From Rhodoferax sp. (GTDB lineage: Bacteria > Pseudomonadota > Gammaproteobacteria > Burkholderiales > Burkholderiaceae_C), in NCBI RefSeq assembly GCF_013297935.1, contig NZ_JAAFIX010000011.1:1-64000 (forward strand): a stretch of DNA of 64,000 nucleotides, in the 5' to 3' direction. The stretch's first letter is position 1. Each line of letters starts with the position of its first letter. Below are positions 7,009 to 56,052 of this stretch, piece after piece. Position numbers and translations under genes: made by a program. The notes below the pieces were generated by a model that was not told where the DNA came from, ran no database searches, and saw nothing but the letters and a program-made list of their open reading frames with translations.

Positions 7009-9084
7009 ATGGCTACGCTGGACTTGTTTTCACTAGAACCGGCACAGCCGGCAAACCCCGCCAAGCTGCGACTCTTGGCCCTGCGGGATCAGTTGCACCA
7101 CCTCGGTCACGCCTACTACGTGCTCGACGCGCCGCTGGTGCCGGATGCCGAATACGACCGGCTTTTCCAGGAGCTCCAGGCACTGGAGGCGGCGCACCCG
7201 GAGTGGGTCACTGCCGACTCCCCCACACAGCGGGTGGGCGGGCAGGCGCTGGACGTGTTTGTCAGCGTGCGCCATGCGGTGCCCATGCTCAGCATCCGCA
7301 CCGAGACGGACACCGAGTCCACCGGCGCTGAAGCTTTTGACGCCCGGGTGCGCAAAGAGCTGGAGCTGACTCCGGCTGACCCGCCGGTGGAATATGTGGC
7401 CGAGCTCAAATTCGACGGTCTGGCCATGAGCCTGCGCTACGAAAACGGCGTGTTGGTGCAGGCCGCCACACGTGGCGATGGGGAGTACGGCGAGGACGTC
7501 ACCCAGAACATCCGCACCATCGGCCAGATTCCCCTGAAGCTCCCCGCCGGCGTGCCCCCGGTGCTGGAGGTGCGTGGCGAGGTGTACATGCGCCGCGACG
7601 ACTTCGAGGCGCTGAACGAGAAACAGCGCGACAAAGGCGGCAAAACCTTTGTCAACCCGCGCAATGCGGCAGCGGGGGCCGTGCGCCAGCTGGACCCCGG
7701 CATTGCTGCGCAGCGCCCCTTGAGCTTTTTTGCCTACGGCCTGGGCGAGGTCGTCATGGCCGAGCAGGGTGGCCCGGCGTTTAGTACCCACTACGGCATG
7801 CTGCAAACCCTAAAATCATGGGGTTTTCCGGTCTCAGCCCTCGTGGATACTGCGCAAGGCGCTCCTGAATTAATAGCATATCACCAGCGCATCGGAGCCT
7901 CCCGCGACCAGCTGCCTTTTGACATTGACGGCGTGGTCTACAAGGTCAACAGCTTGGCGCTTCAGCAGCGCTTGGGTTTTGTGACTCGCGAGCCCCGCTG
8001 GGCGGTCGCCCACAAATACCCCGCGCAAGAGCAAGTCACGCGGGTACTGGGCATTGACGTGCAAGTGGGGCGCACCGGCAAGCTCACGCCCGTGGCGCGA
8101 CTCGACCCCGTGTTTGTAGGCGGCACCACGGTGTCGAATGCCACGCTGCACAACCTCTTTGAGCTGCGCCGCAAGCGGGTCCGGGTGGGCGACAGTGCCA
8201 TCGTGCGCCGCGCTGGCGACGTGATTCCCGAGGTGGTAGGCATTGTGAGCAGTGGCCCCCGGACCAGCTATGTGCCCAACTTCCGCATGCCGCGCGCCTG
8301 CCCGATCTGCGGAAGCACCGTGGTGCGCGAAAAAACCGAGATGAACCACCGCTGTAGCGGGGGGCTGTTTTGCAGCGCCCAGCGCAAGCAGGCGATTCTG
8401 CATTTCGCCCAGCGCCGCGCCGTGGAGGTGGAGGGGCTAGGCGACAAGCTGGTAGAGCAGTTGGTCGACACGAATGTGATCCGCACGCTACCCGACCTCT
8501 ACCGCCTGGGGCTGACTGCCTTGGCAAGCCTGGACCGGATGGCCGACAAATCAGCTCAAAACATTGTGGATGCTTTGGAAAAGTCCAAGCAAACCACCTT
8601 GCCCCGGTTTTTGTTTGGCCTTGGCATTCGCCATGTCGGCGAGGCCACCGCCAAAGAGCTGGCCCGCCACTTCGGAACGCTGGACGCCATCATGGACGCC
8701 AGCGAAGAAGCCTTGTTGGGCGTCTCCGATGTGGGGCCTATCGTTGCCAAGGCCATTCGCACCTTCTTCGACCAGCCACACAACCGGGAAGTGGTGGAGC
8801 AGTTGCGCGCCTGCGGTGTCACCTGGCCCGAGGGCGCTGCCGCCGACGCCGGGCCCAAGCCCCTTGCCGGCAAGACTCTGGTGCTCACCGGCACCTTGCC
8901 CACGCTGGGGCGGGATGCGGCCAAAGACCTGATTGAAGCGGCTGGCGGCAAAGTTAGCGGCTCCGTGAGCAAAAAAACCCACTATGTCGTGGCCGGTACT
9001 GAGGCCGGCAGCAAGCTCGACAAGGCCCGCGAACTGGGTGTGGCAGTGTTGGATGAAGCCGGTCTTCTGGAGTTGCTGAAATGA
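7009..9084 (+). CDS. ligA: NAD-dependent DNA ligase
   Basis: Cytoplasmic ligase of 691 residues that seals nicks using NAD+ during replication and repair. Domains in order: Ia domain with Y-x-x-D-A-PLVPDAEYDRL; adenylation domain with the catalytic lysine in the KFDG motif (about K134); OB fold; four-Cys zinc finger (CPICGS...CSGGLFCSAQ, about residues 430-460); helix-hairpin-helix region; C-terminal BRCT (about 615-691). The stop overlaps the def start by 4 bp (ATGA), indicating translational coupling. Residues about 268-290 are encoded by a copy of the dispersed 55-bp repeat and include the rare codons TTA and ATA; this stretch corresponds to a variable segment just before the conserved FDIDGVVYK. 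Confidence 0.97.
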   Translation: MATLDLFSLEPAQPANPAKLRLLALRDQLHHLGHAYYVLDAPLVPDAEYDRLFQELQALEAAHPEWVTADSPTQRVGGQALDVFVSVRHAVPMLSIRTETDTESTGAEAFDARVRKELELTPADPPVEYVAELKFDGLAMSLRYENGVLVQAATRGDGEYGEDVTQNIRTIGQIPLKLPAGVPPVLEVRGEVYMRRDDFEALNEKQRDKGGKTFVNPRNAAAGAVRQLDPGIAAQRPLSFFAYGLGEVVMAEQGGPAFSTHYGMLQTLKSWGFPVSALVDTAQGAPELIAYHQRIGASRDQLPFDIDGVVYKVNSLALQQRLGFVTREPRWAVAHKYPAQEQVTRVLGIDVQVGRTGKLTPVARLDPVFVGGTTVSNATLHNLFELRRKRVRVGDSAIVRRAGDVIPEVVGIVSSGPRTSYVPNFRMPRACPICGSTVVREKTEMNHRCSGGLFCSAQRKQAILHFAQRRAVEVEGLGDKLVEQLVDTNVIRTLPDLYRLGLTALASLDRMADKSAQNIVDALEKSKQTTLPRFLFGLGIRHVGEATAKELARHFGTLDAIMDASEEALLGVSDVGPIVAKAIRTFFDQPHNREVVEQLRACGVTWPEGAAADAGPKPLAGKTLVLTGTLPTLGRDAAKDLIEAAGGKVSGSVSKKTHYVVAGTEAGSKLDKARELGVAVLDEAGLLELLK
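7812..7878 (+). repeat. Dispersed repeat copy 1 (in ligA)
   Basis: Contains AAATC at the left, then CTCAGCCCTCGTGGATAC, TGCGCAAGGCGCT and TTAATAGC, matching the intergenic copy at 35029 in order and spacing apart from a longer left arm. Read in frame it gives SALVDTAQGAPELIA. The codons TTA and ATA are unusual for this GC-rich gene. Confidence 0.65.
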
Positions 9085-9620
9085 CAGTACGCGAGATTCT
9101 CAAAATGGGCGACCCGCGCTTGCTGCGCGCTGCGCAGCCGGTCACGGATTTCGACAGCGATGCCCTGCACCTTTTGATCACCGACCTGTTGGACACCATG
9201 AGAGCCGCCAATGGTGCCGGCCTCGCGGCACCGCAGATCGGGGTGGACCTGCAAGTCGTGATTTTTGGCAGCCATGAGCGAAACCCGCGTTACCCGGATC
9301 GTCCGGTCGTGCCCCCCACCGTGCTGTGCAATCCCGTCATCACGCCCATCGGCGACGCCGAAGAAAGTGATTGGGAGGGTTGCCTCTCCGTGCCCGGCAT
9401 GCGGGGCAAGGTGCCACGTTGGTCCCACATTCGCTACACCGGGTCAGACCAGTACGGCGATGCCATCGACCGCACCGTCGAAGGTTTCCATGCGCGCGTA
9501 GTCCAGCACGAGTGCGACCACCTGTGGGGCAAGCTTTACCCGATGCGCATGCGCGACTTGTCCCAGTTCGGGTTCACCGAAGTCTTGTTCCCGGGAATTG
9601 CGGCGGCTGAAGACGACTAA
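9081..9620 (+). CDS. def: Peptide deformylase
   Basis: Metalloenzyme of 179 residues that removes the N-formyl group from new proteins. All three family motifs are present: motif 1 NGAGLAAPQIG, motif 2 EGCLSVPG with the metal-binding cysteine, and motif 3 QHECDHLWG with the two metal-binding histidines and the catalytic glutamate. The start ATG lies inside the ligA stop (ATGA), so expression is probably coupled to ligA. Deformylases are often paired with fmt; fmt is not in this window. Confidence 0.96.
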   Translation: MTVREILKMGDPRLLRAAQPVTDFDSDALHLLITDLLDTMRAANGAGLAAPQIGVDLQVVIFGSHERNPRYPDRPVVPPTVLCNPVITPIGDAEESDWEGCLSVPGMRGKVPRWSHIRYTGSDQYGDAIDRTVEGFHARVVQHECDHLWGKLYPMRMRDLSQFGFTEVLFPGIAAAEDD

Positions 9621-9649
9621 GCAGGTCGCCAGTGCGGCCTTGGGGCCAC

Positions 9650-55019: not shown

Positions 55020-55122
55020 AAGCGAGCGGGTTCCTTCGGCGCGTTGTCGGTCTATTCTTATTATGAAGTGCGAAACCGCCGGCGTGCCACCTTAATCCTG
55101 AAAATCGGAGGGTAAACCGGCC

Positions 55123-56052
55123 TCAAATATCTTCCAAGAGGGCGTAGGGCAGGGGTAACACCGTCAGTTCGGCACCGGCAACCGACAGCTTCCCGGCTTG
55201 GCTGGAGGTTTGCAGCACAACAACTGCCTCATAGCCGCCAGCGGGGTGGGCCGCCGACTGCACGACCTGACCCACCACATTCTCCGGATCATCGTCGGCA
55301 TAAATTTCCTGTGCCGCAGTCAGCGGGCCGGTCGTGTGAACCCGGTAGGCGCGCCGCTTCAAGGTGCCGCGGAACTGGCTGCGAGCCACCACCTCTTGCC
55401 CCGGGTAGCAGCCCTTTTTGAAGCTCACGCCGCCGACGGATTCGTAGTTCAACATTTGAGGAACAAAGGCCTCGAACACCGGCTGCGTCACCATCACCAC
55501 CCCGGAAGCCACCTCGCCCCATTGCCAGGTGTCGAGTGGCAACGCGGGCCCTGCGGGCTGCGGCGCCCCAGCAGGCGCTATGAGGATTTGTCGTGCCGTG
55601 CTCCCCGCAGGGTACAGCGCGACCAAAGAATTCTGATCAAATTCGGTCTTAGCCCATATGGAATATGCGCCATTAGCTATGTTTTTTGTAGCATCGCCCG
55701 CCAGGCCCCACAGGTCGTAGGCTTCGCTTGCGTCCGACAACTTGGCTTTGGAGCGCATGACAAACATGGAGAGCCGCTTGAGCGTGGGTGCCAGCAAGTC
55801 TTTACTGCAGAGGAGCAAAATTTTTCCATCTTCGCGCTTGAGTCCGATAAAGCTGGCTTGCATCCGCCCTTTGGCATTGCAAAACGCGGCCAGCCGTGCT
55901 TGGTCGGTTCCTAAGAGCGAGAAATCCTGGGTGAGCTGGCCATGGATGAATTTGGCAGCGTCATCGCCCTCGATGGCGATAACACCCCAGTGGTTCAAAC
56001 GGACTACGCCAAAAGGCAGGGCAAAAGAGGGAGCGGGGTTCGATGCGGTCAT
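55123..56052 (-). CDS. ygfZ: Folate-binding protein YgfZ
   Basis: GcvT-related protein of 309 residues that works in iron-sulfur cluster assembly with tetrahydrofolate. The signature KGCYPGQEVVARSQFRG is complete, including the functional cysteine, and the N-terminal FIHGQLTQDF region is typical. I chose ATG 56052 because similarity begins near FALPFGVVRLNHWG; a longer frame from 56130 would overlap mltG. A dispersed repeat copy encodes residues about 121-138 in a variable loop. The divergent mltG start is only 10 bp away. CATAAT lies 7 nt upstream of the ATG, so a leaderless mRNA is possible. Confidence 0.93.
   Translation of the reverse strand: MTASNPAPSFALPFGVVRLNHWGVIAIEGDDAAKFIHGQLTQDFSLLGTDQARLAAFCNAKGRMQASFIGLKREDGKILLLCSKDLLAPTLKRLSMFVMRSKAKLSDASEAYDLWGLAGDATKNIANGAYSIWAKTEFDQNSLVALYPAGSTARQILIAPAGAPQPAGPALPLDTWQWGEVASGVVMVTQPVFEAFVPQMLNYESVGGVSFKKGCYPGQEVVARSQFRGTLKRRAYRVHTTGPLTAAQEIYADDDPENVVGQVVQSAAHPAGGYEAVVVLQTSSQAGKLSVAGAELTVLPLPYALLEDI
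55639..55692 (+). repeat. Dispersed repeat copy 12 (in ygfZ)
   Basis: AAATTCGGTCTTAGCCCATA, then TGGAATATGCGCCATTAGCT and ATGTTTTTTGTAGC. The host gene is on the opposite strand and reads it ATKNIANGAYSIWAKTEF, the same frame as patatin, GST and DUF1624. It is distinctly AT-rich against its flanks. Confidence 0.75.

Follow-up and report, generated by a model that had tools for sequence, protein, structure and literature searches.

Are short repeats that lie in frame within protein genes necessarily insertions? This question is raised by a stretch of 64,000 nucleotides of Rhodoferax sp. (contig NZ_JAAFIX010000011.1, positions 1 to 64,000; RefSeq assembly GCF_013297935.1), hereafter the window, in which a preliminary description had reported 13 copies of a repeat and had viewed them as inserted copies of a miniature mobile or gene-converted element. 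The family proved to be real. Its copies share one 54-nt layout, number in the hundreds in the genome, lie at the same sites in related genomes and are constrained at the DNA level, and they are not insertions as a rule. By these genomic features the best reading, to which we give about an even chance, is a signal resembling the DNA uptake sequences (DUS) of Neisseria and the uptake signal sequences (USS) of Pasteurellaceae.

A consensus scan of the window recovered all 13 copies, including one near 36173 that had been listed as weaker, and a single gap-free register of 54 nt fits every copy. The layout is AAATCGGCCTCTAGCCC, exactly 10 nt, TGCGCAAGCAGCTAY, exactly 7 nt and ATAGC, with the spacing constant in 13 of 13 copies. 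The first spacer had been given as 8-9 bases and is corrected to exactly 10 nt after TAGCCC in every copy; of the copy starts, two were moved by the register, from 7812 to 7824 and from 29047 to 29050. As described before, the copies occur in both orientations (eight on the plus and five on the minus strand), and 12 of the 13 lie within genes recognised by the gene caller, which stay open with the frame kept; the exception, at 35030, is intergenic (Table 1). The core measures about 54 bp, and its edges are rich in T/A. In the consensus scan the copies score 24-37, whereas three first-order Markov shuffles of the window reach 26 at most, and the weakest three (7824, 29050 and 48104) fall in the shuffle range of this crude scan. 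With a 68-column weight matrix, itself seeded with the 13 window copies, they score 33-79, and one second-order shuffle of 464 kb peaks at -1. The motif holds about 54 bits of information across the 68 columns and 49 across the 54 core columns. A conserved hairpin or structured RNA was rejected: the GCTAY and RTAGC arms show no covariation among 95 copies, and no Rfam match was found within the window at gathering scores.

Independently of the weight matrix, the strict 27-mer TGCGC-N4-AGCT-N10-TAGC has 239 matches in the genome of 3.61 Mb (118 forward and 121 reverse) and its reversed pattern has none. A lack of excess over shuffled sequence, which would have contradicted the preliminary description, is not what was found. 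The window together with 20 genome stretches of 20 kb (464 kb in all) holds 95 copies versus 56 strict matches, and by extrapolation the genome total is roughly 400 copies in 3.6 Mb; the 20 stretches were picked for holding strict matches, and the 95 copies are therefore a biased sample and not a density.

The history of the copies was followed in syntenic stretches from seven motif-bearing relatives, which have 76-85% DNA identity to the window in the aligned parts. In each of the 47 mapped comparisons, the relative carries a copy where the window has one (scores 25-69); for site 55639 one relative was mapped, and it has the copy. In the reverse direction, all copies of the relatives G001 (12), G007 (13), G339 (10), G020 (4) and G013 (2) map to copies; four of the seven copies of G165 and two of the seven of G015 were unmappable anywhere. 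Among the mapped copies of the seven relatives, no gain or loss was found in either direction. The preliminary description would also have been contradicted had orthologues in distant species shared the DNA of a copy, at its place, as ordinary conserved codons, and this is partly the case.

Six relatives without the motif family (20-65 kb compared in each, with one weak match in G326 and none in the other five) give the length of these sites where the motif is absent. For six of the ten sites that could be compared, the sequence is of identical length in at least one motif-free relative; no motif-free relative mapped to sites 35030 and 55639. At the ligA site the length is the same in G345, the one relative mapped, and, among more distant proteins, all 14 full-length LigA homologues have 51 residues in the corresponding segment (one further homologue is cut off). 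The SelO site is equally long in three of four motif-free relatives and 9 nt longer in the fourth; the segment has 50-54 residues in 33 of 33 homologues. The length is also unchanged in two of two motif-free relatives at the FadB-like site 29050 and at the glutathione S-transferase-like site 37493, in the sole one mapped at the AidB-like site 36176, and in two of six at the first PurL site, 14333. At site 46591 in tex, the otherwise motif-free G326 has a degenerate copy (score 24), and at 48104 the same relative, the sole motif-free one, is 6 nt longer. Thus, insertion of a mobile unit is not supported as the rule.

The first PurL site has a copy with a score of at least 14 in 18 of 80 PurL loci from several genera; the PurL alignment included 50 of the 80 loci. 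The inter-domain linker of PurL that corresponds to window position 16681 holds other in-frame stretches in L011, a Polaromonas metagenome-assembled genome (MAG), and in L013 (VIPAQAGIH...RGNDG and RAEPVEALASQ...SSGRTG, respectively), which we take to be translated repeats of unrelated families. In L019 and L024 the stop codon of purL lies within a motif copy (GTGAAATAGGCC) and forms part of the motif.

What is held at these sites is the DNA. When the third codon positions of the seven relatives were pooled, identity to the window was 272/327 (0.83) in the 21 most informative columns, versus 3028/4614 (0.66) in the flanks and 182/335 (0.54) in uninformative motif columns; the pooled cells are not independent, as the relatives share history. 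Therefore, the informative columns are protected where the protein is indifferent, and the spots themselves are permissive. The protection is not uniform, since core column 16 is poorly held (identity only 0.47), and the columns of low information vary almost freely, more than the flanks.

The family was rightly described as one of high copy number that is tolerated in frame in unrelated genes, with two favoured frames. In the window, four of five same-strand copies share one frame (AQ.A) and six of seven opposite-strand copies another. The codons noted as rare are enriched relative to elsewhere in the same genes in the case of TTA (7-fold), ATA (29-fold) and TCA (16-fold), and not in that of TTT (0.7-fold). 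The window is atypical in having 12 of 13 copies in genes. In the 464 kb, 46 of the 95 copies lie wholly in genes, 35 are intergenic and 14 lie across gene ends; because a simple gene caller gives a coding fraction of 0.894, genes are under-occupied. The in-gene copies use four of six frames (same-strand phase 2, 21 copies; opposite phase 0, 17; opposite phase 2, 5; same-strand phase 0, 3). The two favoured frames are largely explained by being stop-free, leaving a residue in opposite phase 1 (0 versus 5.5 expected) and same-strand phase 0 (3 versus 9.0).

There is no strand preference within genes (24 same, 22 opposite), and relative to the gene that ends there 19 copies have the same and 15 the opposite orientation. 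For 21 of the 35 intergenic copies the 3' end of a gene is at most 15 nt away. Copies occupy 10 of the 27 convergent gaps of at least 54 nt, 28 of the 109 co-oriented gaps of that size and two of the 55 divergent ones. The function of the motif would then lie at the level of DNA and not of RNA.

The motif is unevenly distributed among relatives. Within the genus, 13-302 strict matches were counted in 10 of 25 genomes, the present one included, and 0-5 in the other 15; the counts in 16 genomes from other families are 0-1. At the level of the wider family, at least one match is present in 130 of 299 genomes, many of them at control level, and about 55 have at least 10 (counted by eye; the reversed control of one genome reached 17). 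A looser skeleton, TAGC-N13-GC-N6-AGCTA-N9-TAGC, was run on twelve genomes, with 0-2 matches of the reversed control. It gave 191 matches in the Polaromonas MAG L011, 165 in Rhodoferax ferrireducens OTU1 (L001), 148 in G282, 108 in Acidovorax temperans (L020) and 8-100 in the remaining eight. The motif occurs in dialects: the sequences compared, for two of the twelve genomes, are TAGCCGGCGTATTTATTGCC in L011 and TAGCGCTAGTGCAATATGC in G301, versus TAGCCCTCGTAGATATTGCGC in the present genome. Meanwhile, segments of at least 500 nt that are specific to G001, G007 or G339 and have no counterpart in the window (41.6 kb) contain no copy, versus 9.2 expected from the shared parts.

The likeness to DUS and USS follows from this combination: the copies are site-stable, held at the DNA level, free in orientation, formed in place at permissive spots, divided into dialects and absent from the genome-specific segments examined. 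Hundreds of copies of one fixed-length DNA signal would thus have remained at the same chromosomal places, acting in either orientation, and each would have been shaped in place by substitution, or replaced through recombination with DNA taken up, insertion not being the rule. The most probable mechanism is that the natural-transformation machinery of Comamonadaceae prefers DNA bearing the signal, and that uptake followed by homologous recombination restores and enriches it. An uptake receptor would read the motif, and this drive, not another DNA function, would maintain it; receptor and motif may drift together, giving rise to dialects. Copies would persist where the constraint of protein or promoter permits, namely in flexible loops, in linkers and just past stop codons. 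The fuller claim, that Comamonadaceae possess a DUS system whose 54-bp multi-block signal has genus dialects and reshapes essential proteins in place by transformation-driven enrichment, and that the signal also appears in the phages of these bacteria, we hold more tentatively, at somewhat below an even chance. Because the defining function of DUS and USS, preferential uptake, is in this case something that we infer, the motif is not classed as a member of either.

Several observations weigh against an uptake signal. The ComEC family is found in the present genome and in 287 of 299 genomes of the family, and does not track the motif. The spacing of copies is uneven, with a coefficient of variation of 1.19 on one contig and 1.05 for the listed forward matches of G007. 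Site 49959 is compatible with insertion of a whole unit. Six Comamonadaceae plasmid records partly match the 35018 copy, three of them at E values of at most 2e-5; no plasmid record matched the 24978 region, and no match was found among phage records. The motif is also longer than DUS or USS are known to be. Finally, among 74 stretches of viral contigs matched by a 16-base pattern, 33 look true, with scores above 15 (the remainder reach at most 10), and the flanks within 100 nt of copies are no more divergent than sequence farther away; in both respects the motif is unlike DUS, which the accessible part of PMC2397512 reports to be absent from recently acquired genes and to have more divergent flanks.

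Many copies on viral contigs lie in linkers of phage proteins. In one phage gene (17 of 80 loci aligned, plus L185), L230 has the motif and L231 does not, and the linker is of equal length in both. L227 and L233 are 96% identical over the 500 nt compared; in the motif, what separates them is three deleted bases together with a few substitutions, and the scores are 42 and -3 under a weight matrix that allows no gap.

The main rival to an uptake signal is that the motif is bound by an intracellular DNA-binding protein acting in nucleoid architecture, segregation, replication or repair; its sites, working in either orientation and tolerated in genes, would be held in place by selection, and phages would be served or regulated by them too. 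The same-site copies in all 47 mapped comparisons, the DNA-level constraint, the independence of orientation, the conserved blocks at fixed spacing and the copies on viral contigs would all be expected of such a site. However, the forward matches of G007 are spread at 19, 17, 15, 25 and 17 per 500 kb (97 of 142 listed), without the strongly polar layout that we assume to mark Chi- or KOPS-like sites (KOPS, FtsK-orienting polar sequences). In addition, about 50 bits would be long for one binding site, and related genomes of the genus do without the motif. We consider this explanation rather unlikely, at about one chance in four.

An origin of the copies as relics of a miniature mobile element, namely old in-frame insertions since fixed and decayed, with the insertion masked by adjoining deletions, appears improbable. 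The motif is present in many copies and its number differs greatly between genomes of one genus, as would fit mobility, and motif-free relatives are indeed shorter at three sites, by 72 nt at 49959 (in G326, the sole one mapped), by 21-27 nt at the second PurL site, 16681, and by 9 nt at the HGSNAT site 22219. Copies also adjoin stop codons beyond expectation: in non-divergent gaps of at least 54 nt, 29 of 40 lie within 15 nt of a 3' gene end, versus 19 expected from the gaps occupied. On the other hand, the equal length without the motif at six of ten sites and across LigA and SelO homologues, and the lack of gain or loss among mapped copies, are difficult to reconcile with this account, and decay has been uneven, with core columns held, others free and the arms without covariation. 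A candidate enzyme, a Y1 transposase-like gene (Y1_Tnp), occurs in 30 of 31 genus genomes, and one of 15 such loci, L108 in G015, has strong copies close on both sides (positions 7465 and 8347); however, the gene is found in motif-poor genomes as well, and most loci have no strong copy nearby (L102, L103, L107 and L115 have a weak one, scoring 17-27, within about 0.5 kb on one side, and the others have none near). Least probable is ectopic gene conversion, by which copies from elsewhere in the genome would overwrite sequence of equal length as a replacement element: the LigA copy does match the 49959 copy at 84% over 43 nt without any gain in length in LigA, and the PurL copy of the Polaromonas MAG L011 bears the dialect of its own genome, but the low-information columns are almost free, so that most copies are not recent full-length overwrites, and no writing enzyme was identified.

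Mobilisation by a transposase of the RAYT type (REP-associated tyrosine transposase; REP, repetitive extragenic palindromic) was rejected, since genomes poor in the motif have Y1 transposase-like genes just as rich ones do. The Y1 transposase-like protein of the motif-rich genomes G000, G001, G007 and G020 (L101-L104; L101 is G000:C23:302807-303031) has a weak Pfam score, and in G000 and G007 it reads F where others have LTYFD or AYIDLNP. We take this position to be that of the catalytic tyrosine, which may be lost.

The copies of the window and the genes that hold them are listed in Table 1. Two other features were seen in the window: a near-perfect inverted repeat of 25 bp with one base between the arms (43574-43624), possibly a terminator, and, in the FadB-like gene, a 22-nt sequence that recurs exactly 30 nt further on (29345-29396).

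Table 1. Motif copies in the 64,000-nt window, in the 54-nt register
Copy and location	Coordinates	Strand	Phase
Copy in ligA (7009-9084 +)	7824..7877	+	2
Copy 1 in purL (13403-17515 +), length-variable loop	14333..14386	+	0
Copy 2 in purL, inter-domain linker	16681..16734	+	2
Copy in HGSNAT_cat-domain gene (21808-22551 +)	22219..22272	-	
Copy in selO (24785-26287 -)	24990..25043	+	
Weak copy in FadB-like gene (28118-30301 +), domain linker	29050..29103	+	
Intergenic copy, 13 nt past stop codon, 15 nt ahead of next gene	35030..35083	+	
Weaker copy in AidB-like acyl-CoA dehydrogenase gene (35099-36781 +)	36176..36229	-	
Copy in glutathione S-transferase-like gene (36815-37753 +)	37493..37546	-	
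Copy in tex (45827-48277 +)	46591..46644	+	
Weak second copy in tex	48104..48157	-	
Copy in patatin-like gene (49212-50327 +)	49959..50012	-	
Copy in GCV_T-domain gene (55123-56130 -)	55639..55692	+	

Should the motif prove to be an uptake sequence, a large environmental family would have self-recognition in transformation, and the dialects could serve as a natural experiment on the co-evolution of receptor and signal. Were it a DNA site of some other kind, a motif holding about 50 bits and keeping its layout exact across ligA, purL and phage genes would still be a strong and unexplained constraint of DNA upon proteins. For annotators, the lesson is that in-frame repeats need not be insertions.

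Among known systems, the palindromic elements of Rickettsia are short repeats tolerated in frame within unrelated genes, and the present repeat is like them in these respects. The parallel had been drawn in the preliminary description and does not extend further: the present motif has no co-varying palindrome, and the length is equal without it at six of ten sites, where insertion of a unit is not seen (site 49959 is compatible with one). REP elements and REPINs, with their RAYT transposases, are likewise present as hundreds of short dispersed copies, and the intergenic copies of our family resemble them in lying near 3' gene ends and nearly avoiding divergent gaps. In contrast to REP/REPIN, the present family lacks a conserved hairpin, has about half of its sampled copies in genes, and has a copy number that Y1 genes do not track. 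The Beta-proteobacterial repeat element (BRE) is, according to the accessible part of PMC3110155, about 90 bp long with 69% G+C, often tandem and present in at most 29 copies per genome; it too is dispersed in Comamonadaceae, with some copies in coding sequences, and differs, by this description only, in length, G+C content and arrangement.

Six motif strings were not found in open-licence PubMed Central papers, and among the matches listed there was no report of the motif family or of uptake sequences in these genera; a paper on intrastrand triplexes, in which six Comamonadaceae terms were looked for, does not name them. Pieces of the family have very probably been seen before. As far as the accessible part of PMC5217627 (2017) goes, two motif pairs were reported as potential novel motifs and left unexplained: GCTTAT(N)5AAGCG, with 114 copies in Acidovorax ebreus, and ATAGCT(N)22CAAAAG, with 125 in Polaromonas naphthalenivorans. 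These pairs lie near gene ends, often between convergent and rarely between divergent genes (94% and 81% intergenic, respectively), and Rhodoferax ferrireducens T118 has the most significant pairs among all genomes studied in that work. The first pair agrees with the Acidovorax dialect of L020, and in the second AGCTAT lies at the expected distance. Unlike the present analysis, the accessible text of that paper gives no full motif and no in-gene, site-stability or dialect analysis.

The closest comparison is with DUS and USS, which are described, in the accessible parts of PMC2397512, PMC7811141 and PMC3630211, as conserved motifs at permissive spots of the core genome, with dialects. Like them, the present motif has many dispersed copies within and outside genes, in both orientations, conserved at permissive places of the core genome, and it varies in dialect between species and does not need insertion. 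It differs from them in its scale, being a signal built of several blocks that measures about 54 bp and carries about 50 bits, with about 400 copies in 3.6 Mb by extrapolation.

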